Assembly: GCF_000766945.1 (NCBI RefSeq)
Contig: NZ_KN266208.1
Span: 98,604 to 162,603, forward strand
DNA length: 64,000 nucleotides
Source of the DNA: Cellvibrio mixtus subsp. mixtus J3-8
GTDB lineage: Bacteria; Pseudomonadota; Gammaproteobacteria; Pseudomonadales; Cellvibrionaceae
Reading direction: 5' to 3'
Numbering within the stretch: position 1 is the first letter of the stretch; each line of letters opens with the position of its first letter. The notes beneath the pieces were generated by a model. That model made no database searches. It was given only the letters and a program-made list of their open reading frames with translations, and was not told the DNA's origin. Of the stretch, positions 826 through 11,384 are shown piece after piece. Both the position numbers and the translations under genes were made by a program.

Positions 826-1914
826 TTATAAACTGATAATGATATTACGCTTGTGTAATACCCAGGCAACAAACCACAAAATGGCAACCATCAGAATAGC
901 AAACAGGAAAGATGCAAAATAAGGATCCGCAAAATTACGGAACAAACCATAAAGTGCGCTATATGCGTTTTCGCTACCAACAGGGATTAAATACAAGGTA
1001 GTCGCTAACAAACCGGAAAGCACATAAATAAAGAGCGGGTTCTTACCGATAATTTCAAAAAAGTGGTACACAGGACGCGCGATATTAATTGCCGCTGATT
1101 GCTCGATTTTCACTAACAATAGCAATACCAAAATCGCCACACCACAAGTCAGCAATACAAATGGACTGGTCCATAATGATTTATTAATCGGGAATACAGT
1201 ACTCCAGGCTAGCGCTAATGCTATTAGCAGCAATGCCGACACAAATAATTTACTCAATGCTTTTTCTTTATTTTCACTCGTTAATAATACGCGAGTCGCT
1301 TCGAAGCCAATCAGCACATTCACGATAGAAGGAAAAGTACTTAAAATACCTTCGGGGTCAAATGGCATACCCTTACCCTGCCAGAGATGACTTGCGCCCA
1401 ACACTGACAAATCTACCTGGCGAACAATACTGTGCTCAAGGCTGTATGGATCAGCCACAAGATTAAGTAAACCCCAATAGCCAACCAGTAAAATCGCACT
1501 GATCACAACACGAGCAGTAAAACCAAAATACAAAATAATAAATGCAGCAAAACCGTAAGCAATTGCAATACGCTGCAACACACCCATGATGCGCCATTGA
1601 TCAAGGCTTTCATTGAATGGATAAGCTGCCAGCAGAACGCCGATTAAAAATAGCAACGCAACACGGCGCGCTATTTTCTTCGTTTGCGCTGCGGCATTTA
1701 ATTGGCTCAACCCACGCACTGCAAAGTACATTGCCGAGCCGACAATAAACATAAAGAAGGGAAATACAAAATCTGTGGGAGTTGCACCATGCCAATCAGC
1801 ATGCAATAACGGGCCGTATACAAATTCCCATGATCCTGGTGTATTTACCAGAATCATGAGCGCGAGGGTCAAACCACGCATTACATCCAAAGCTAAAAAA
1901 CGTTGCTTGACCAT
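826..1914 (-). CDS. nagX: NagX, HGSNAT/DUF5009-type inner-membrane acyltransferase-like protein
   Basis: This is a 362-residue polytopic membrane protein. It opens with RFLALDVMRGLTLALMILVN, the signature of the DUF5009/heparan-alpha-glucosaminide N-acetyltransferase family, followed by the family WHGATPTDFVFPFFMFIVG block and about ten hydrophobic segments. In GlcNAc clusters of Shewanella and Xanthomonas type this gene is called nagX. Its exact reaction is unsettled; a role in trans-membrane acetyl transfer or in handling GlcNAc is inferred from the family. It lies between nagP (52-base gap) and nagA (54-base gap) on the same strand, which supports co-transcription from the promoter upstream of nagK. 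Confidence 0.88.
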   Translation of the reverse strand: MVKQRFLALDVMRGLTLALMILVNTPGSWEFVYGPLLHADWHGATPTDFVFPFFMFIVGSAMYFAVRGLSQLNAAAQTKKIARRVALLFLIGVLLAAYPFNESLDQWRIMGVLQRIAIAYGFAAFIILYFGFTARVVISAILLVGYWGLLNLVADPYSLEHSIVRQVDLSVLGASHLWQGKGMPFDPEGILSTFPSIVNVLIGFEATRVLLTSENKEKALSKLFVSALLLIALALAWSTVFPINKSLWTSPFVLLTCGVAILVLLLLVKIEQSAAINIARPVYHFFEIIGKNPLFIYVLSGLLATTLYLIPVGSENAYSALYGLFRNFADPYFASFLFAILMVAILWFVAWVLHKRNIIISL

Positions 1915-1966: not shown

Positions 1967-3271
1967 TTATTTCCAGCTGCGCAGTTTGTATCCTTTTGCT
2001 GCGTAATAAAGAATGAACAAATAACAGGGGGTCATCACGATGTAGGCCGTTTGACGATCCACCAGGTGAGAAACACCGCCGAGAATTAACGGGAATACTG
2101 CACCGCCGGCGATAGCCATAATCAAGAGCGCAGAACCGGTAGCGGTATATTTACCCAAACCACTCAACGCCAGAGGCCAAATCGCTGGCCATACGATGGC
2201 ATTAGCAAGGCCTAACAGTGCAATACACAAAATAGTATTGGGGATGGCAGGTGCGCCGGCAAATGCAAATAATGAAGAAATAGACGTTGATTCGTGGTTA
2301 CCAAATACAATGCTCAAACTTATTATCACGCCGAGAACCGCAGACACTAACAGCATATTTTGTTGAGAAATAATTCGCGGGATCAACAAAATCCCGAGGA
2401 TATAACCCACCACCATACACGACATAGTGATTGAGGTCAGAATACCGAAATTACTAAAACCGATACTGCGCCCATAAGAACCAATAGTATCGCCAGCGAT
2501 TACTTCAACACCAACATAAACAAATAATGCAATAACACCAAGAACCAGATTAGGGAATTGAAAGACTTCGCGTAGCGGCAATTTATCTTCTTTACTTTCT
2601 TCTGATTCCAAATCGGGAAGTGATGAAAACCTCACCAATATCGCAACAACACCAATAATAATTGCCATGTAGATATATGGCATGATCAGGTTATTTGCTA
2701 ACTGATCAATTTCCTCTGGTGTCGGTGTAGTACTGGTGTGAGCATTCATTCCGCCAAGAATCAATGCAGTGAAAACAATTGGTGCAACAATACCGGCAGA
2801 TTTATTTAAAATCCCCATAATACTAATACGGCGCGCCGCAGATTCTTCCGGCCCCATTTTTACAACATAGGGGTTTACCGCAGTTTGTACCAGGGTCTGG
2901 CCCGCACCCATAATAAATTGGGCGAGCAGGAACAATGCAAAGGATTGGGCTTTTGCTGCAGGAATGTAAAATAGCGCAGCCACTGACATAACACCTAAAC
3001 CTACGGCCATGCCATTTTTATAACCAATGCTGTTGATAAGCCAGGAAGAAGGTATTGAGAAAATACAAACAGAAAAATAAAAGCTGGACACAATCAGGTA
3101 CGCCTGAATTGGATTCAACTTCAAAATTAATTCCAGGTACGGCATCAACGACCCATTCAACCAGGTCACAAATCCGAAAATAAAGAAAAGCCCGGCAATC
3201 ATTGCCAGCGGAATGAACGAGTTCGAATACTTTTCCTGAATATTGGTAGCGGTCATAGTTTCACTATTCAT
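1967..3271 (-). CDS. nagP: GlcNAc:H+ symporter, FucP-family MFS
   Basis: A 434-residue MFS permease with about twelve membrane segments. The N-terminal stretch with FFIFGFVTWLNGSLMPYLE and the later GAGQTLVQTAVNPYV block mark it as the FucP/NagP branch of sugar:proton symporters. A cytoplasmic acidic loop (residues about 220-235, ESEESKEDK) separates the two halves. It would bring GlcNAc across the inner membrane unphosphorylated, which explains the presence of a dedicated kinase (nagK, 18 bases upstream) in place of a PTS system. The neighbourhood favours GlcNAc over fucose as substrate; a true fucP-like paralogue is present at 46257-47513. Start at ATG 3271; a second Met five codons in is possible. 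Confidence 0.92.
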   Translation of the reverse strand: MNSETMTATNIQEKYSNSFIPLAMIAGLFFIFGFVTWLNGSLMPYLELILKLNPIQAYLIVSSFYFSVCIFSIPSSWLINSIGYKNGMAVGLGVMSVAALFYIPAAKAQSFALFLLAQFIMGAGQTLVQTAVNPYVVKMGPEESAARRISIMGILNKSAGIVAPIVFTALILGGMNAHTSTTPTPEEIDQLANNLIMPYIYMAIIIGVVAILVRFSSLPDLESEESKEDKLPLREVFQFPNLVLGVIALFVYVGVEVIAGDTIGSYGRSIGFSNFGILTSITMSCMVVGYILGILLIPRIISQQNMLLVSAVLGVIISLSIVFGNHESTSISSLFAFAGAPAIPNTILCIALLGLANAIVWPAIWPLALSGLGKYTATGSALLIMAIAGGAVFPLILGGVSHLVDRQTAYIVMTPCYLFILYYAAKGYKLRSWK

Positions 3272-3289: not shown

Positions 3290-4216
3290 TTAAAGGGTAG
3301 CACTTAATTGATCATTGTTATTTTTTGCCGTCCTCAGAGCTTGCTTTGCAAAATAAACCGCTCCGAATTCCGGTTGGTAAAGTACTGGGGAGAGATTATC
3401 CGCCATGTCTTTGTCCATCCAGGGAATCAGACGCGGGGCCAAACCACCAATGATAGACATGCGTCCGGGGGTGGTAGCCCACAGCTTGCGAGCTACTCCA
3501 CTCATGTAGGCAGCTCCCTCCTTAACAATATTGATGGCAACTGCGTCGCCAGCATCAGCGGCATCCACCACAAAAATAGCGAATTTGGCGTAATCACCCT
3601 GCCGCGCACCAAACATACGATCCACAATCATCATGCCTTCGGCCTGCAAAAATTCGCCAATAGACTGACTTAGACTGGTTCGCGGACCTAAATCATCTGA
3701 TGCCAACAAAACCGCTTGAATAGCTTCCAGCCCCATCCAGGCACCACTGCCTTTGTCACCGATGGGAAAACCATGGCCGCCAATAAATAGGGATTCATTA
3801 TTTACAAATGAATAGCCACAAGAACCTGTACCGCAAATCATTACTGCGCCTTCATCACGATTGTGCGCACCCAGGCAAGCGATATGGAGATCAGTAGTGA
3901 GATGCATTTCTTTGAAAGGATGATCCCAAGCCGACATAACATCATAGAGGCTGGGAACATTTACGCCTGCAAGGCCGGCACCGGCAATTAATCCACTAAT
4001 GGCTGACGGAGGTAAACCTGCATCAATCAGCGCTAATTCAGCGGCAGTGCGTATGGAATCTTTGGCTTGTTGAACGCCCTGGAAAGGATTGGCTGGACCA
4101 CCGACACCAGTACCCAGTACTTGCAAATCTTCGGTCATTATACTGGCGCGACACTTGGTGCCTCCGCCATCAATTCCGATAAACAAGGTTTGCACGCCGG
4201 ATGGCAACTTCGCCAT
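3290..4216 (-). CDS. nagK: N-acetylglucosamine kinase, BadF/BadG/BcrA/BcrD ATPase fold
   Basis: A 308-residue cytoplasmic sugar kinase that would phosphorylate imported GlcNAc to GlcNAc-6-P for NagA. The phosphate-1 motif of the actin-like ATPase fold, GIDGGGTKCRAS, lies at residues 14-25 with Asp16. A second glycine-rich block, MICGTGSCGYSF, follows, then GGHGFPIGDKGSGAWMG, which is characteristic of BcrAD/BadFG-type GlcNAc and glucosamine kinases. A GAGG Shine-Dalgarno six bases before ATG 4216 fixes the start. It is the first gene of the nag unit and sits behind a 5' leader of about 240 bases that starts at the operator-embedded promoter near 4467-4495. Confidence 0.9.
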   Translation of the reverse strand: MAKLPSGVQTLFIGIDGGGTKCRASIMTEDLQVLGTGVGGPANPFQGVQQAKDSIRTAAELALIDAGLPPSAISGLIAGAGLAGVNVPSLYDVMSAWDHPFKEMHLTTDLHIACLGAHNRDEGAVMICGTGSCGYSFVNNESLFIGGHGFPIGDKGSGAWMGLEAIQAVLLASDDLGPRTSLSQSIGEFLQAEGMMIVDRMFGARQGDYAKFAIFVVDAADAGDAVAINIVKEGAAYMSGVARKLWATTPGRMSIIGGLAPRLIPWMDKDMADNLSPVLYQPEFGAVYFAKQALRTAKNNNDQLSATL

Positions 4217-4466: not shown

Positions 4467-4495
4467 AGGTTACGCACAGCGGACAACGTTGTCAA
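4467..4495 (-). promoter_or_regulatory. Promoter of the nagK-nagP-nagX-nagA unit
   Basis: On the minus strand a perfect TTGACA (-35, 4495-4490) is followed by exactly 17 bases and TAACCT (-10, 4472-4467). The -35 hexamer overlaps the GACAACGTTGTC palindrome, so repressor binding would block RNA polymerase directly. The predicted transcription start is near 4460. The -10 is weak, but the same arrangement recurs upstream of the TonB receptor and at 22593-22621. Confidence 0.65.
4482..4493. promoter_or_regulatory. NagR-type LacI-family operator (GACAACGTTGTC)
   Basis: A perfect 12-base palindrome with a central CG, the hallmark of LacI-family binding sites. It resembles the NagR boxes I recall for GlcNAc regulons of Xanthomonas and Alteromonadales (TGACARCGYTGTCA core). 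Identical cores occur at 11335 and 11371 and a permitted variant at 22608. No LacI-family gene lies in the window, so the regulator must be encoded elsewhere. Confidence 0.75.
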
Positions 4496-4673: not shown

Positions 4674-5396
4674 TTAAAAAGCTACAAATGAATTTACCGT
4701 TAATCGCCCTGTAACCGGGTTGTCATCAACACTCCGTTCCGGGTCGGTAATATATGGGGAATGTATCAGGCAGCTACGGTAAACAACCATCCGATTGTAT
4801 TTGGCATTTACCACTGAAATTTTTGTAAAGTACTTATCTGATTCCGTAAAATAGGCTGGCTTTAACTCCCGCGCTTCCAGTTCGGAAAAATACACACCAA
4901 TATAATCATTACTTCTCTCCGCAGTAACGATCTCAAAATTTGTAGCATTGTGGCGGTAAAACGCAGTACCGCCATGATGCTCATCGCACAAATATAAAAG
5001 CACTGCAAATTGGTTGTATGCACTGGTATCAAAGTGTGGCGTCAGCTGTATTTTCCCAAGATTTTCCGGTTTTATAGTTGTTAATGACATGCTGCAAACC
5101 GCCTTACGCAACGGCAGGTCGGCAGGAATGCCATATTCTTTCCTTATAATTGGCTCAATCAAATCCATTAACGCATGTGAATATGTCGATGGCGGAGTCA
5201 ACCTTAAACCGGGATATCCAGTCCCCGGCTTGGGAATAGGATACGGCTCAAATGGATTCTGCCTGGCAAATTCAACCAGATCCGATGGCTTTTTTAACAA
5301 ATCATCAATAATTAAAATTTTCTGTTTTTCTTCGCCAATCTGAACTGTATCAATAGATAGGTTTTCATTAAATATAGAAGCGTTGTTGATTGACAT
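4674..5396 (-). CDS. DUF6445 family protein with 2OG/Fe(II)-oxygenase-like motif
   Basis: A 240-residue protein without a signal peptide, recognised as the DUF6445 family that travels with tryptophan-halogenase-like genes beside TonB receptors. Its function is not established. In the sequence I see HFD at 121-123 (His-x-Asp), GGTAFYRH at 142-149, IHSPY with His212 and GRLTVNSF with Arg231. This order and spacing match the metal-binding triad and 2-oxoglutarate-binding Arg of Fe(II)/2OG dioxygenases, so an oxygenase role (for example hydroxylation of a protein or sugar target) is my inference. It is the last gene of the receptor-halogenase-halogenase unit, 109 bases after the preceding gene. 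Confidence 0.75.
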   Translation of the reverse strand: MSINNASIFNENLSIDTVQIGEEKQKILIIDDLLKKPSDLVEFARQNPFEPYPIPKPGTGYPGLRLTPPSTYSHALMDLIEPIIRKEYGIPADLPLRKAVCSMSLTTIKPENLGKIQLTPHFDTSAYNQFAVLLYLCDEHHGGTAFYRHNATNFEIVTAERSNDYIGVYFSELEARELKPAYFTESDKYFTKISVVNAKYNRMVVYRSCLIHSPYITDPERSVDDNPVTGRLTVNSFVAF

Positions 5397-5505
5397 TGTT
5401 TTGCCACTACTTTTGGAATTTAATTTTTAAAAACGATATCGACATAAATCAATCATCATTATCCCGGCTATTTTTCCCATGGCATCTTCCTTACGCCCAC
5501 ACCAA

Positions 5506-6996
5506 TTATATTAATTCATTGTGCTGTTTAAAATTTAATGCACAACGCCGAATAAAATCGGACAACTTTGCCATGTCATGCCGGGATTTATATTGTGTTT
5601 CCGGGTGTTCAGCCAGCGCAGGAAAAACCCCATAGCCAGCCAACAAACAAGCCCATGATTCCGCCTGATAACTTCCCTCCAAACCATAGGTGTGCATATC
5701 CTTAACAAAATTTTCTCCCTCTTTCCATAAGGCTAAAATTTTTCTCAATTTTTCAGGAAGAACCTGGTTGGCAGCATTATCACGCCAATAGTCCGTATCT
5801 TTTCGTTGATTCACTTTATAATGACAAACGATATAGTCCCTGACCCCATCAAACTTCGTATTAATTTCATTATTAAAATTACCAACGAACTGGTTGGTAA
5901 ATGATCCTTTCTCATAATAATTCATGAATCGGGTGATGGTTTCAAAAACCAAATGTAATGCGGTGGCTTCCAAAGGTTCAATGAATCCTTGAGACAAACC
6001 AACAGCCACACAATTTTTTTCCCAGTGCCTGTCAACTCGCCCGATTTTCATATTAAGGTGCCTCGCGTGGACTTCACTATCCAACGCCCCCAGGTGCTGC
6101 CTTAATTCAGTTTCCGCCTGATCAGATGAAAGATAATCAGCACTGTATACATAACCATTTCCAAAACGATTAGTTAGGGGAATTTTCCATGCCCAGCCAT
6201 TTGACAAAGCAGTTGCTGTTGTTTCAGGAGGAAGGATTTCTGTAATAGGACTCGGCATGACTACTGCGGCAGTGTTAAATAGATTTTCCTTAAAACTTTG
6301 AAAATTTACCTTTAGTGCGCCCTGCAAAAGCAAAGATTTAAAACCAGAACAATCAATAAAAAAATCTGCATCCAAAAAACTATCATCATCCAACCGGACT
6401 GAAGATAACTCACCGTTAGCACCCAGGATGACTTCTGTTAGAGTACCCTGGACTCTTTTTACATTCTTATGGAATGCCTTTTCAGCAAGAAATTGCCCTA
6501 ATAACGTAGAATCAAAATGATAGCCATAAGCCACATCAAACGGAAAGGATTCCGCCGGAATAGGGCCCAGGTTTTTTTTAGCCAAATAAGTTGCTAAAAA
6601 ATAATTATCAGGATGCACATTGGCATTATTACCCTGTATGCGCGCCCTGATACTGTTAAAAAAAACCGGGGTAGTAAAGCTATCGGTCTGAGACGGGAAA
6701 GGATGAAAATATTGCTCAAAACCAGGAATGAACGACCAATTTAAAAACGAAATTCCATTTTTATATGTCGCATTGCAAAAGGGCATCCACTCTGTCTCTG
6801 CAACACCAATAGCATCAAAAAAAACCTTTAACTGAGGTGTAGACCCCTCACCCACACCAATAATCCCTATTTCAGGGGACTCCAGTAAACAGATTTCCAT
6901 ATCGGTCCAGCGCGCTGCAATTAAATTTGCAGCCATCCAGCCCGCAGTCCCACCGCCAACAATAAGAATTTTTTTAGGTTTTTGGGAATTCATCAT
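5506..6996 (-). CDS. Flavin-dependent tryptophan-halogenase-like protein (second of pair)
   Basis: A 496-residue member of the PrnA/RebH-like halogenase family. Visible motifs are the FAD-binding GGGTAGWMAA at 14-23, GVGEGSTP at 47-54, Lys79 in NATYKNGISFLNW (the same number as the catalytic Lys of PrnA), the diagnostic WxWxIP as WAWKIP, and GFIEPLEAT containing the conserved Glu. All hallmark halogenase residues are therefore kept, but the substrate is unknown. Free tryptophan is unlikely given the context, a TonB receptor operon controlled by a GlcNAc-type operator. It would need reduced FAD from a separate reductase, which is not in the window. It starts two bases after the stop of the preceding halogenase gene, so it is certainly co-transcribed and probably translationally coupled. 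Confidence 0.85.
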   Translation of the reverse strand: MMNSQKPKKILIVGGGTAGWMAANLIAARWTDMEICLLESPEIGIIGVGEGSTPQLKVFFDAIGVAETEWMPFCNATYKNGISFLNWSFIPGFEQYFHPFPSQTDSFTTPVFFNSIRARIQGNNANVHPDNYFLATYLAKKNLGPIPAESFPFDVAYGYHFDSTLLGQFLAEKAFHKNVKRVQGTLTEVILGANGELSSVRLDDDSFLDADFFIDCSGFKSLLLQGALKVNFQSFKENLFNTAAVVMPSPITEILPPETTATALSNGWAWKIPLTNRFGNGYVYSADYLSSDQAETELRQHLGALDSEVHARHLNMKIGRVDRHWEKNCVAVGLSQGFIEPLEATALHLVFETITRFMNYYEKGSFTNQFVGNFNNEINTKFDGVRDYIVCHYKVNQRKDTDYWRDNAANQVLPEKLRKILALWKEGENFVKDMHTYGLEGSYQAESWACLLAGYGVFPALAEHPETQYKSRHDMAKLSDFIRRCALNFKQHNELI

Positions 6997-6998
6997 GT

Positions 6999-8525
6999 TT
7001 AGACCAACCGGGCCATATGTTGCTTTAATTTTTCAAGGTATACGCGATGATCTGGCAACTTGTCCTTCAACGTATTAAATTGCTGATTTTTATGGTTTAT
7101 ACATTGATTTATATACACATCAGTGTCACTCGCCGTTACCGGGTGCCTGGTCGGATATTTCATGCCGTATAAGATATAAAGATAATTATCCACGTCAAAC
7201 ACTTCAAATTTGCTAAAAAAATCTTGCCGTTCAGGAACCTGGGTTTTCCAAATATCCAAGCGCTGTTTAAGCTCATCAGATAATTGCGCACCTTCGGTGT
7301 TGTCCAGCCAGAATTGTGAATCACGCCTATCCGATAAAAAGTAATGCAATTGCACAAAATCAATAACCCTTTCCCATACATAGGTGAAAGTTGTATTAAA
7401 CCTGCGAGAAAAATTTTCTATCTGATCCTCTGTTTTTGGAAATCCTTTAGCCAGATATTCAGCAGCATAATCGGTCACTAAAATTGACGTTGCTTCTAAC
7501 GGTTCAACAAACCCCTGGGCCAAACCTAATGCAACGCAATTTTTTTCCCATAGTTTTTTCCTGTATCCAATGCGCATAGGTACTCGCCTGGGATTCATAT
7601 CCTCCAATTCAACACCAAGATATGAAGAGAAGGATGAAATAGCCTCAGATTCACTCATATGCGTATCAGAGTAAACAAAACCTACACCTCGCCGGTTGAG
7701 CAAGGCAATATCCCAAATCCAACCAGCCTTATGTGCAGTTGCAATAGTGAACGGCGGAATCGGTTGATTCTCACTAGGAATTTGAATTGCCAGAGCCGCG
7801 TTAGTAATAATTTGCGATGATTTATCGACTAAAGGAACAGCCAGTTCCTTGTCAATCAAGATCGAATGAAAACCACTGCAATCAACGTAAAAATCGAAAG
7901 CCAGCGTTTCCCCATCACTCGTCAATAAAGATAATATTTCGCCTTCTGCGCCTTTTGTTGCACATTCAATATTTGCAAGTTTATGAATTACACCAAACCT
8001 TTCTTGCGCATTTTTAGCAAGGAGTTTCGCAAACTTTACTGCATTTAAATGATATGCATAATTAAGTGGGCCCTGATAAGGCAAAGAGGAGATCAACTTG
8101 GGAGAAAGAAAATCATTGCATGCTTTTTCCTGTATGCCGACAAAGTCAGCATAGCTTTTCTGCATTCCACTATTTAGCCAAAGTGGAGCCCAATTTTCAT
8201 TATCGTTATAGGTGGGGTCAAATGGATGGTAATAATAATTTTCATCACCATGTTTTTTTGAGTCGAGCCAATTTACAAATTTTATGCCCTGCTTGAATGT
8301 AACATCGCAACAATCAATAAACTCAGCCTCAGAAATTTCGAAGCGAGCCAAAGTGGCACGTATGTGAGGAACAGTTCCCTCACCAACACCAATAATGGGA
8401 ACATTGGGGGATTCTATTAAGGTGATTTCATATCCAAATTGCGCGGATAACTCCACCCCCAAATGATTGGCAGCCAACCAACCTGCCGTACCACCACCAA
8501 TAATAGCTATTCGCTTTATCTGCAT
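6999..8525 (-). CDS. Flavin-dependent tryptophan-halogenase-like protein (first of pair)
   Basis: A 508-residue paralogue of its downstream neighbour. The FAD motif IGGGTAGWLAANH is at 9-21, Lys78 sits in DVTFKQGIKFVNW, and GFVEPLEAT is present. The signature WxWxIP reads WIWDIA, with the final Pro lost, so the active site may be altered. I place the start at ATG 8525 and not at the in-frame ATG 8588: the longer frame would translate the terminator hairpin at 8550-8580, and the family N-terminus begins with the FAD motif. It follows the TonB receptor gene across that terminator. The substrate is unknown; modification of the receptor, its ligand or a surface protein are all only possibilities. 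Confidence 0.83.
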   Translation of the reverse strand: MQIKRIAIIGGGTAGWLAANHLGVELSAQFGYEITLIESPNVPIIGVGEGTVPHIRATLARFEISEAEFIDCCDVTFKQGIKFVNWLDSKKHGDENYYYHPFDPTYNDNENWAPLWLNSGMQKSYADFVGIQEKACNDFLSPKLISSLPYQGPLNYAYHLNAVKFAKLLAKNAQERFGVIHKLANIECATKGAEGEILSLLTSDGETLAFDFYVDCSGFHSILIDKELAVPLVDKSSQIITNAALAIQIPSENQPIPPFTIATAHKAGWIWDIALLNRRGVGFVYSDTHMSESEAISSFSSYLGVELEDMNPRRVPMRIGYRKKLWEKNCVALGLAQGFVEPLEATSILVTDYAAEYLAKGFPKTEDQIENFSRRFNTTFTYVWERVIDFVQLHYFLSDRRDSQFWLDNTEGAQLSDELKQRLDIWKTQVPERQDFFSKFEVFDVDNYLYILYGMKYPTRHPVTASDTDVYINQCINHKNQQFNTLKDKLPDHRVYLEKLKQHMARLV

Positions 8526-8549
8526 GCTGTTCTCACAAATTTCAAACAA

Positions 8550-8580
8550 AAAAAAACCCAGCCGAAGCTGGGCTTTTTTG
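8550..8580 (-). terminator. Intrinsic terminator between receptor and halogenase genes
   Basis: CCCAGC (8557-8562) pairs with GCTGGG (8567-8572) around CGAA, which reads as a stable UUCG tetraloop on the minus strand, followed by a run of nine Ts on that strand. It begins nine bases after the receptor stop. Partial termination here would give much more receptor than halogenase from one promoter. Confidence 0.85.
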
Positions 8581-8588
8581 AGCATCAA

Positions 8589-11261
8589 TTACATCTTGAA
8601 GCTTACGCCCAACATATAGCGAGCTTCGCCCTCGAAACTCCAGGCAGGGAAGCCTTCTTTCAAATCCACTTTCACATCAGAACTAGCCGGTGCCGTACCT
8701 TTCTGAATACTGTCTTCTTCAGTTAAGTTAACACCTTCCAATGACAGGCGAATGGAGTCGGTAATGTTCCAACCTAAACTCAAATCCAGGCTGCCATACG
8801 ACTCATGCATACGGTTGCCATAAAACTTCTGGCCTTCACGAATCAGGAACTCTGAACGCCAGTTATATGCCAAACGAGCAGAGAACTCATCATTTTCCCA
8901 GTAAGTTACAGCATTCACTGTATGCTTGGATGAATCAGAGAACAATGGCAAATTATCCGGGAAAGCTGATGTTGGAGATGAACCATCCGCATAAGTATAG
9001 TTTGCAGCTACACCAAATCCATTATCCCACGCATGAAGCGCCTGCAATTCAATACCTTCAATCTCAGCGCCTGAACCATCAGCGGCAGAAGCAATAGCCC
9101 AGTCATCCACTTTCGAGTCATTGAGTAAACCGACTTTTTGGTTTTGTTTCAAATTAATAACAGTGACGTTACTGAAATCTTTGATGAAGTATGTAGCAGA
9201 CAACATATTTGAATCACCGTAGTACCATTCAACGCCGAAGTCAGCTTGCGACGCTTTTACGGGTTTCAGTGATACATTACCGGTAAATAATGCTTCATTC
9301 CCCAACGTACCATCATTCACACCGATTTGAGTGGTGTTAGCAAACAGGTTTTCGTAATTCGGGCGAGACAATGCCTGGGATAAAGAGGTACGCAATTTCA
9401 GATCATCAGTTAAATCAAAACTTACGTTCAGGCTTGGCAGTACGTCGCGGTAAGAATCGCTTTTGCTAGACATTGCATTGGCATAGCCATTTGCGTCATA
9501 ACCGGTTGTGCCTTTCTTGGTGACATCCCATGCATGGTAATCAGAGGAAATATCAGTACTTACATAGCGAACACCGAGGTTACCTTTGATGGAATCGGTA
9601 CCGAAATTCAACATTACATAAGCAGCATCATTTTGCTCTTCAAGATTCACTTCTGCCGAATTGTCGACAGTGTGTGTAGTCAGCACTGATTTTGCCTTAC
9701 CCATCATGGCTGATACATTTGGCTTGGGCAATTTAAAGCCATTACCTGCCGGCAATTGATCATTAGTCCAGAAATCTGTTGGCAAGCCATCATACTTCGC
9801 GTTATTTGCATAAATAAACTGCGTAGAATTAACTTCGTGATCAGCAGAAGATACTCCTACTTTTATCGACTCTACCGCACCCAATTCCAAATGGAATTCA
9901 GCGTTCAAGCGGATAAAATCTTCCTGATCTGAACGTGGACCACCTTTTAATGACCAACCTTCCGGACCCCATCCTTTACCTGCAGGGCCACGATCAGCCT
10001 GATCTTTTGTACTGATATCAAGAAGGGTCCAATCAGCAACGGTAAACGACTTCTTGGCAGTGTTTACTTTGTAGGTATCGCCAGTAGCATCAAAAATACC
10101 GTCATAACCACCGGTTTTATTAACCATTGACCAACCGTAGTTAGCTGTTAATGTTGTTCCACCATCAGACTCGGTAGTACCAATCAAACCATCAACTGTT
10201 ACGTCATCGTTTGCAAACTTGAAGTCGGCAGTAGTGGTTTTGGAATCCATACTTGATTCACGAACCCAGGTCTGGGCCCAGGCGTTTACATCATTCCAAC
10301 CAGTTCCGCCTTTTCTTTCCCAATAGGTACATGTACCGGCAGCATTAGTAGACTTGCAATCCCCGCTTGGGAACAGGAACAACGAGGTGTTATCGTTGTT
10401 TGCTTCTGATTCCAGGTACATATGGTCCAAACCAAATGTCCACTCTTCTGTTGGTTTGAATTGTACCGATGCATTGACAGCAGTATTTTCACGATCCTGA
10501 TGGAACGCAGAAGGAGCCACACTACCACCCCAACCTAATAATACTTCTGTACCTGCACGAACATAGTCAGCTTTCTTAATAGCGCCAGAAACTAACACAC
10601 CGAAAGTTTCATCATCATTTTTGTAGCTGTATAACCCGGAAACTTCCGGATCAAATTCTTCAGATATGCTGCCATAACCAGCTTTTACGCCAGCAAATAC
10701 AGTATTAGCATCCAAATCAAGAGGTTTACGGCTTTCTACAATAACAGTGCCGCCGATACCACCTTCAGTCAAATCGGCTTGAGATGATTTGTACACCTTA
10801 ATTCCGCCAACCATTTCTGATGGCATCATTCCGTAATAAAATGAACGGTCAATTGATTGCTGATCGAACCAACCGGAAGTAGCAACACTGTGACCATTCA
10901 ACTGGGTGCTTGTATATTGTGACGATGCACCGCGAATAGAAATTTGTTGGCCTTGGCCGAACTGGCGACCTACTGATACACCAGGAATACGCCCCAAGGT
11001 CTCACCCACGTCAGAATCCGGCAATTTACCTACATCTTCAGCCGAAACAGCATCAACAACTGCTGGTGAATCACGCTTTATATCAATTGCATTTTTTAAT
11101 GCACCGCGAATACCGGTAATAACCACTTCTTCCGGCTCCGCTGCATCACCCTGCGCGTTGGCAGTATGAGCAAACCCCATCATTGCGACCGCAGCAACTG
11201 AGCCGAGCATCAATGCACTCTTGTTGGCCAGTTTGATCGCATCACTTAACTTATTACGCAT
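8589..11261 (-). CDS. TonB-dependent outer-membrane receptor, probably for GlcNAc or chitin oligomers
   Basis: An 890-residue outer-membrane receptor. The start at ATG 11261 has a GGGAGA Shine-Dalgarno seven bases upstream. The longer frame to 11384 runs over the promoter and both operators and is rejected. A signal peptide of about 36 residues ends at ANA-QG. A TonB-box-like EEVVITG follows, then a plug domain with DVGKLPDSDVGETLGRIPGVSV and IRGASS, and then a long beta-barrel. The C-terminus is MLGVSFKM, slightly unusual because such barrels normally end in an aromatic residue. Control by the same operator type as the nag operon suggests a chitin-derived ligand; the ligand is inferred, not shown. 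It heads a unit with two halogenase-like genes and a DUF6445 gene. Confidence 0.9.
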   Translation of the reverse strand: MRNKLSDAIKLANKSALMLGSVAAVAMMGFAHTANAQGDAAEPEEVVITGIRGALKNAIDIKRDSPAVVDAVSAEDVGKLPDSDVGETLGRIPGVSVGRQFGQGQQISIRGASSQYTSTQLNGHSVATSGWFDQQSIDRSFYYGMMPSEMVGGIKVYKSSQADLTEGGIGGTVIVESRKPLDLDANTVFAGVKAGYGSISEEFDPEVSGLYSYKNDDETFGVLVSGAIKKADYVRAGTEVLLGWGGSVAPSAFHQDRENTAVNASVQFKPTEEWTFGLDHMYLESEANNDNTSLFLFPSGDCKSTNAAGTCTYWERKGGTGWNDVNAWAQTWVRESSMDSKTTTADFKFANDDVTVDGLIGTTESDGGTTLTANYGWSMVNKTGGYDGIFDATGDTYKVNTAKKSFTVADWTLLDISTKDQADRGPAGKGWGPEGWSLKGGPRSDQEDFIRLNAEFHLELGAVESIKVGVSSADHEVNSTQFIYANNAKYDGLPTDFWTNDQLPAGNGFKLPKPNVSAMMGKAKSVLTTHTVDNSAEVNLEEQNDAAYVMLNFGTDSIKGNLGVRYVSTDISSDYHAWDVTKKGTTGYDANGYANAMSSKSDSYRDVLPSLNVSFDLTDDLKLRTSLSQALSRPNYENLFANTTQIGVNDGTLGNEALFTGNVSLKPVKASQADFGVEWYYGDSNMLSATYFIKDFSNVTVINLKQNQKVGLLNDSKVDDWAIASAADGSGAEIEGIELQALHAWDNGFGVAANYTYADGSSPTSAFPDNLPLFSDSSKHTVNAVTYWENDEFSARLAYNWRSEFLIREGQKFYGNRMHESYGSLDLSLGWNITDSIRLSLEGVNLTEEDSIQKGTAPASSDVKVDLKEGFPAWSFEGEARYMLGVSFKM

Positions 11262-11334: not shown

Positions 11335-11346
11335 GACAACGTTGTC
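11335..11346. promoter_or_regulatory. NagR-type operator O2 near the transcription start
   Basis: A perfect GACAACGTTGTC palindrome centred 36 bases downstream of the first operator. It would cover the predicted transcription start of the receptor unit, so two repressor dimers could act together. Confidence 0.72.
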
Positions 11347-11355
11347 GATGAGCCA

Positions 11356-11384
11356 ACACTAGGCCCACAGGACAACGTTGTCAA
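11356..11384 (-). promoter_or_regulatory. Promoter of the receptor-halogenase unit
   Basis: On the minus strand TTGACA (11384-11379), 17 bases, then TAGTGT (11361-11356). As for nagK, the -35 box is part of the operator palindrome. The predicted start is near 11349, giving a leader of about 90 bases. Confidence 0.62.
11371..11382. promoter_or_regulatory. NagR-type operator O1 over the -35 box
   Basis: A perfect GACAACGTTGTC palindrome, identical to the nagK operator at 4482-4493, overlapping the -35 hexamer of the receptor promoter. Confidence 0.75.

Follow-up and report, generated by a model that had tools for sequence, protein, structure and literature searches.

Why should the uptake of a sugar call for enzymes of the halogenase and oxygenase type? 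The question is posed by a 64,000-nucleotide stretch of the 5.18-Mb genome of Cellvibrio mixtus subsp. mixtus J3-8 (contig NZ_KN266208.1, positions 98,604 to 162,603; "the window" hereafter), in which the operon of a TonB-dependent outer-membrane receptor also encodes two halogenase-like flavoproteins, TrpH1 and TrpH2, and a protein of the DUF6445 family. Sequence comparison and structure prediction show the locus as the outer-membrane uptake unit of an N-acetylglucosamine (GlcNAc)/chitin-type regulon, its receptor operon coding for three predicted enzymes, two from the FADH2-dependent halogenase family and a third with the fold of Fe(II)/2-oxoglutarate (2OG) oxygenases. Our best guess, with a probability of about 0.36, is that the TrpH and DUF6445 enzymes carry out a cytoplasmic oxidative maturation of the receptor. 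They would oxidise (halogenate or hydroxylate) its side chains before or during export, as a maturation specific to the nutrient; SapC or Cupin_8 proteins would replace DUF6445 in its slot at other loci; and GlcNAc would induce the unit by releasing a LacI-type repressor, by analogy with NagR in Shewanella.

The four genes, receptor, TrpH2, TrpH1 and DUF6445, lie on one strand, the minus strand. The receptor (8589..11261; 890 amino acids (aa) from an ATG at 11261, with GGGAGAA upstream) belongs to the TIGR01782 (TonB-Xanth-Caul) subfamily, scoring 599.6 bits against an NCBIfam cut-off of 310, and its N-terminus reads like a signal peptide. TrpH2 (6999..8525), whose clade accompanies the nag operator described below, scores 416.1 bits with PF04820 (cut-off 21); its start is an ATG, and the listed open reading frame (ORF) that reaches 8588 from a TTG is longer. 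TrpH1 (5506..6996; 408.2 bits, same profile and cut-off) is the second, accessory FAD-dependent halogenase-like enzyme, and the DUF6445 protein (4674..5396; 240 aa) scores 227.6 bits with PF20043 (cut-off 24). All three enzymes read as lacking a signal peptide, so that their work should be cytoplasmic.

TrpH1 and TrpH2 share 35% identity, and alignment finds in both the FAD motif GxGxxG and the catalytic Lys and Glu of PrnA and RebH. In TrpH1 the pair is K79 and E340, which we take to correspond to K79 and E346 of PrnA. The WxWxIP motif of flavin-dependent halogenases reads WAWKIP in TrpH1 and WIWDIA, with an altered final residue, in TrpH2; among 143 TrpH homologues of 380-700 aa (143 of the 144 from the fetched loci, one duplicate being dropped) that final residue is P in 84, G in 52 and A in 3. 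The catalytic Lys and Glu of RebH are K79 and E357 (PMC5945002). Both Lys and Glu are retained in 130 of the 143 homologues, and because of this TrpH catalysis seems to be under selection. The other 13 lack one residue or both, and many of these sit in tandem arrays. Arrays with a degenerate member beside intact ones occur at L036 (own genome, C10:160689-168077), L191, L197, L211, L212 and L224 (L-numbers label loci of this genome or of relatives); the degenerate member is kept as if it were a partner subunit.

The DUF6445 protein carries H121, D123, H212 and R231. In an alignment of 72 sequences (the window protein and 71 of the 82 ORFs from fetched loci; the 11 omitted are mostly overlong), the invariant positions include Y61-P62-G63, Q117, H121, D123, T144, H149, Y182, R202, H212 and R231. 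The HxD, His and Arg set is kept in all 72 members, and in 86 of 86 once the 11 omitted ORFs and the three other copies of this genome are added. The AlphaFold2 model is confident (mean predicted local distance difference test score, pLDDT, 94.4; predicted template modelling score 0.91), and Foldseek matches it to 18 PDB entries at E <= 0.001. The 50 matches listed (E 1.7e-4 to 2.4e-3) have template modelling (TM) scores to the query of 0.30-0.50 and identities of 9-15%, a distant likeness; by their titles they are Fe/2OG oxygenases or relatives, several titles naming no enzyme class. HygX, OkaE, SptF, AndA and a prolyl hydroxylase rank high among them, and two prolyl hydroxylases (6t8m and 8k0e), enzymes that act on proteins, are included. 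A yardstick is provided by a SapC protein (PF07277, L149:9282-9998): its equally confident model (pLDDT 94.1) finds nothing in the PDB at E <= 0.001. SapC as a further 2OG fold is rejected, its best match standing at E 0.15.

By DSSP strand order the HxD of the DUF6445 model lies on core strand 2, H212 on strand 7 and R231 at the start of strand 8, presumably the usual places for the Fe(II)/2OG metal site and its Arg; the site is read from sequence and strand order rather than from coordinates. Asp123, we assume, makes a hydroxylase-type site likelier than a halogenase-type one. A PDB sequence search with DUF6445 returned no solved relative, and Pfam 2OG-FeII_Oxy_3 (PF13640) touches 6 of the 72 members, at best with E 0.006. 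The protein is thus predicted to be an Fe(II)/2OG oxygenase with a double-stranded beta-helix fold. An earlier, sequence-only reading of this DNA had placed the receptor, the two halogenase-like flavoproteins and DUF6445 in one operon, credited both flavoproteins with the PrnA Lys and Glu, and numbered the DUF6445 residues as His121-x-Asp123, His212 and Arg231. Every element is where it was placed, with profile scores above cut-off, both catalytic residues are present by alignment, and the residue numbers are exact. It had also named structure prediction as a check on the oxygenase likeness; a model devoid of a jelly roll did not occur, and the Foldseek likeness is to 2OG oxygenases. Distant relatives of DUF6445 are encoded at 58 viral loci (L091-L148), and the window protein is matched at 1.7e-21 by phrog_1644, which bears the label 'minor coat protein'; that phage label may hide Fe/2OG oxygenases.

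What regulates the unit? Three perfect copies of the 12-bp palindromic operator GACAACGTTGTC, found by sequence match and assigned to no strand, stand in the cluster: at 11371..11382 and 11335..11346, 110 and 74 bp before the receptor start, and at 4482..4493, between DUF6445 and nagK and before the latter. The window holds 8 matches to GACAACGTTGTC at two mismatches or fewer (100 shuffles: mean 2.08, maximum 6), and the whole genome 14 perfect sites against 1 for the same word read backward. Genes of the nag, chitinase, hexosaminidase or receptor kind adjoin nine of these sites: nagK has one and the window receptor two; glycoside hydrolase genes of families GH18 (two genes), GH19 (one) and GH20 (one) are each preceded by one; another lies before the L035 receptor-TrpH unit; and at L039 a site separates a GH20 gene from a small AraC-type gene, itself followed by a receptor-TrpH unit. 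Of the remaining five, one stands before the gene of a chemotaxis receptor, one before an acetyl-CoA synthetase-like gene, and three have no clear gene link.

The nag cluster runs in the order LacI-type gene, nagB, nagA, NagX-like gene, nagP, nagK, operator, DUF6445, TrpH1, TrpH2, receptor and two operators. Its other members within the window are all on the minus strand: the GlcNAc kinase NagK (3290..4216; NF046058, 448.3 bits, cut-off 370), the GlcNAc transporter NagP of the major facilitator superfamily (1967..3271; NF046060, 676.4 bits, cut-off 625) and a NagX-like transmembrane protein (826..1914; PF07786, 37.6 bits, cut-off 22; NF046061, 155.5 bits, below the cut-off of 480). The LacI-type gene adjoins nagB and nagA at the cluster end (C2:96.3-99.4 kb); its product reaches no NCBIfam cut-off, 17 models matching below theirs. 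Because of these neighbours and of the LacI-type gene at the cluster end, control of a putative GlcNAc type is proposed. The nag type that the sequence-only reading gave to both promoter operators is supported; the number of operators rises to three. A second DUF6445 gene of this genome lies directly behind an operator-bearing GH18 chitinase gene (L030, C1:338343) and is convergent with a receptor-SapC-Cupin_8 unit.

TrpH2 is the enzyme for which a tie to the sugar operator was traced. A search of 61 genomes of the family gave 96 matches in 42 genomes at E <= 1e-100; 29 loci were fetched, picked by rank with gaps and blind to operators, 14 of them close (43-56% identity) and 15 distant (38-43%). 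A perfect operator is present at 12 of the 14 close loci (34 sites) and at none of the 15 distant ones (Fisher 1.8e-6, for rows that are related and not independent). In a tree of 35 TrpH2-group proteins, from which the L273 protein is absent, the nag label requires 3 changes against 11.2 in shuffles, with 0 of 500 as low. A single, well supported clade unites 11 of the 14 nag rows; L275-L277, the remaining three, fall with the operator-less L274. L271 and L274 are close TrpH2 kin lacking a perfect operator. Four proteins of the clade accompany a different receptor, type B (L268-L270 and the own-genome locus L039/L248), and are nested among those that accompany window-type receptors. The two receptor lineages stand far apart in the own-genome receptor tree, the window receptor grouping with L233/L244 and L248 with L242; the L242 contig has no operator, and the TrpH of L242 is of the other TrpH group. 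The TrpH2 clade thus appears to have stayed with the nag operator when the receptor changed. A strict rule that the operator means the TrpH2 clade is broken by the own-genome receptor L251 (site C3:164283), whose TrpH is likewise of the other group. What is new here is that a halogenase clade follows a sugar regulon rather than a receptor, with this one counter-example.

An enzyme that keeps its operator while the receptor differs might act on what the receptor brings in. TrpH and DUF6445 would then work on imported conjugates in which GlcNAc is joined to an aromatic or peptide moiety, beginning their cytoplasmic breakdown or detoxification, and the apparently cytoplasmic location of the enzymes suits this proposal as well. 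GlcNAc and chitooligomers themselves, on the other hand, offer a flavin halogenase no aromatic ring, the transporter that the cluster provides for the inner membrane, NagP, is one for GlcNAc, and homologous enzymes accompany many other receptors. Action on the ligand is retained because it is the sugar operator that the TrpH2 clade tracks; on balance we consider it an unlikely account, clearly behind maturation of the receptor.

How general is the association? A contig scan with nine DUF6445 proteins gave 392 relatives, the best 80 of which were taken as loci, 78 with a profile-found DUF6445 ORF. Two peptide patterns in the scan favour some subfamilies, and neighbour counts are lowered by loci that end near the DUF6445 gene and by distant members that profiles may miss. 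Within 6 kb of DUF6445, the 78 loci hold TrpH in 52, a TonB-dependent receptor in 43, SapC in 31 and Cupin_8 in 11, TrpH and receptor occurring together in 42. The best 80 come from alpha-, beta- and gammaproteobacteria and some Acidobacteria, the best-scoring named ones including Cellvibrionaceae, Cellvibrio and other gammaproteobacteria; 25 of the 61 genomes drawn from the family of the window have DUF6445. The present genome alone has 4 DUF6445, 21 TrpH and 5 SapC genes and 24 TIGR01782 receptors over cut-off; a receptor of this subfamily is found at 10 kb or less from 17 of the 21 TrpH genes, and 11 of the 24 receptors have such enzymes nearby. That GlcNAc uptake is special is thereby ruled out: the enzyme set is widespread beyond the nag locus. 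The puzzle as first posed, why GlcNAc uptake should need such enzymes, accordingly retains its enzymes and its operators and loses its restriction to GlcNAc, given those 11 receptors and the many loci elsewhere. A FecR homologue lies near DUF6445 at 19 of the 80 named loci (Pfam-confirmed in L149 and L160, the two tested), which suggests that these loci are regulated by cell-surface signalling rather than by a sugar repressor. At L153 two DUF6445 modules are neighbours in one genome: the first is of nag type and has operators, the second has a FecR homologue.

These distributions bear on a second alternative, in which the receptor is merely co-regulated and the enzymes, on sensing of chitin, make a halogenated or hydroxylated small aromatic, derived from indole, Trp or Tyr, as a signal or weapon. 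BrvH, a homologue compared below, brominates free indole (PMC5945002, in the portion of the paper used), and 4 of the 21 TrpH genes of this genome lie away from TIGR01782 receptors. Set against this are the 17 that adjoin that one subfamily and the fact that neither an exporter nor a further biosynthetic gene is seen between the two operators. We would not expect a small aromatic to be the product, and rate the idea about level with action on conjugates.

The slot next to TrpH2 has several occupants. At the 14 close TrpH2 loci it is filled by window-type DUF6445 in 4 (L264-L267), by SapC in 5, by Cupin_8 in 3 and by none of these in 2; that any of the three may occupy the slot beside a TrpH2-clade halogenase is also new here. 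Window-type DUF6445 (40-54% identical) adjoins TrpH2 and the operator in L264-L267 and L153. In L264, L267 and L153 the gene is inverted, with the operator on its own upstream side in an operator region common to nagK, which argues for co-regulation independent of position in the operon. TrpH1 is missing from the same-genus counterparts L264, L265 and L267; its nearest kin found (62-66% identical) belong to L268-L270, operator-bearing loci with another receptor, and by this sequence comparison TrpH1 is an accessory of the window locus.

A slot shared with SapC, for whose predicted fold the PDB offers nothing at E <= 0.001, and the 13 TrpH homologues short of Lys or Glu would be in keeping with proteins that do no substrate chemistry and instead sense redox state, halide or iron, or help as chaperones to assemble the receptor. 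The persistence of Lys and Glu in the remaining 130, and of HxD, His and Arg in every one of the 86 DUF6445 proteins, makes such a role improbable.

Does the receptor bear the mark of a modification? Among the own-genome receptors, 11 with enzymes and 13 without, not one alignment column has Trp or Tyr throughout the former and seldom in the latter; the nearest is a Tyr in 8 of 11 against 1 of 13, at which the window receptor itself has Met. A wider comparison set 87 enzyme-linked receptors against 13 others, a small negative set drawn from one genome. Its best columns are A798 (73/87 against 3/13) and R881 (76/87 against 5/13), and the aromatic and His candidates are partial and lineage-bound: Y686 is found in 59% of enzyme-linked receptors against 0/13, but the window and the other nag receptors have Met, Leu or Ser there, and H743 in 64% against 1/13, but is Gln in type-B nag receptors. 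Plug residue Y143 (counted from the ATG at 11261) is Tyr in all 14 nag-type receptors compared, which span two lineages, and in 5 of the 22 others; L273 and L274 have Tyr as well. As a mark of the enzymes it is ruled out, being Phe in 16 of 17 distant-TrpH2 control receptors and in operator-bearing L251, and Tyr in the enzyme-less L231, L233, L244, L247 and L252. It tracks TrpH2-type nag receptors (Tyr in 16 with close TrpH2 kin, in two unrelated lineages) rather than enzymes in general, and is perhaps a sugar-recognition residue.

Peptide halogenases and hydroxylases exist, but a small secreted peptide encoded nearby is a very improbable substrate here: in 118 loci and the initial 20 kb of the window there are 2876 small ORFs of 22-110 aa outside larger ORFs, and no family of these that is shared by at least three loci accompanies the modules, those listed coming from close relatives or from unrelated neighbouring genes. 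Of the three targets entertained in the sequence-only reading, the peptide is accordingly disfavoured, no recurrent small ORF of at least 22 aa having been found, the receptor is a candidate with no diagnostic residue, and the ligand is compatible with a TrpH2 clade that remains on the nag operator across unrelated receptors.

Four points favour maturation of the receptor: the enzymes appear to be cytoplasmic, their catalytic residues persist, their ties are mostly to a single receptor subfamily, and the receptors they accompany differ in regulation. Several observations weigh against it. In 24 of the 78 DUF6445 loci there is no TrpH, receptor, SapC or Cupin_8 within 6 kb; in this genome the 4 outlying TrpH genes are joined by one DUF6445 gene whose coordinates place it far from every TIGR01782 receptor, and enzymes of this kind are missing from the neighbourhood of 13 of the 24 such receptors. 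The 87 enzyme-linked receptors share no nearly universal residue that is rare in the 13 others. The receptor tree mixes the enzyme-linked with the rest (6 changes, against a shuffled mean of 8.2-8.3, with 32-42 of 500 as low). Finally, a TrpH2 clade that tracks the operator and not the receptor lineage fits action on something other than the receptor equally well. A broader proposition, more doubtful than receptor maturation at this one locus and still ahead of its rivals, is that some TonB-dependent nutrient receptors would be matured by oxidation of their side chains in the cytoplasm, ahead of export, through co-induced, nutrient-specific sets of halogenase-type flavoproteins together with Fe(II)/2OG oxygenases (DUF6445, perhaps Cupin_8) or SapC, the sets being matched to the sugar and moving with the regulon between receptor lineages.

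Halogenase-like enzymes adjoin many nutrient receptors; the window locus ties one clade of them to one defined nutrient and operator, and DUF6445 gains a predicted enzyme class. If the receptor is indeed the target, the modification would be of a kind new to outer-membrane proteins. Among the open-licence papers searched, preprints aside, none mentions DUF6445 and none joins tryptophan halogenase, TonB-dependent and N-acetylglucosamine; 'tryptophan halogenase' and 'TonB-dependent receptor' co-occur in two. Within that limited literature no description was met of a nag receptor with halogenase- or oxygenase-type partners. The word 'halogenase' is absent from the main texts, as distinct from the supplements, of PMC3223726, PMC2996990 and PMC5343134, and from the main texts of PMC1790865 and PMC11909599 on carbohydrate TonB-dependent receptors; 'TonB' is absent from those of PMC5945002 and PMC7336383.

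The nearest characterized systems each share part of the arrangement. PDB entries 6frl and 6y1w, which we take to be the flavin-dependent halogenases BrvH of Brevundimonas and Xcc4156 of Xanthomonas, are among the PDB matches of TrpH1 and TrpH2 and, like them, are PF04820-type homologues with Lys and Glu; TrpH2 scores better, and indeed best, with 9lu2, 2pyx and 9ltb. The accounts of BrvH and Xcc4156, in the portions drawn on, describe neither a nag regulon nor a DUF6445 partner. BrvH is slow on indole, and its authors doubt that indole is what it acts on in nature; halogenated products are not known from the organism, and the open active site could, in the authors' view, admit larger substrates (PMC5945002, in part). 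HygX (4xcb), OkaE and the prolyl hydroxylase-type Fe(II)/2OG oxygenases differ from DUF6445 in being only 9-15% identical, with TM-scores of 0.30-0.50 among the 50 matches listed; they are like it in predicted fold, with HxD...H and Arg on the expected strands. The Shewanella NagR regulon (nagK, nagP, omp-Nag, mcp-Nag) likewise combines a LacI-type regulator with an outer-membrane receptor, NagK and NagP, and NagR there is a GlcNAc-responsive repressor of nagK, nagP and omp-Nag (PMC3223726, in the parts consulted); the window has kin of NagK, NagP and NagX. NagR regulons with TonB-dependent receptors are noted for Xanthomonas in the corresponding passages of PMC5343134, and the window receptor is of the same TIGR01782 'TonB-Xanth-Caul' subfamily as the TonB-dependent receptors of carbohydrate-utilisation loci in Xanthomonas and Caulobacter.

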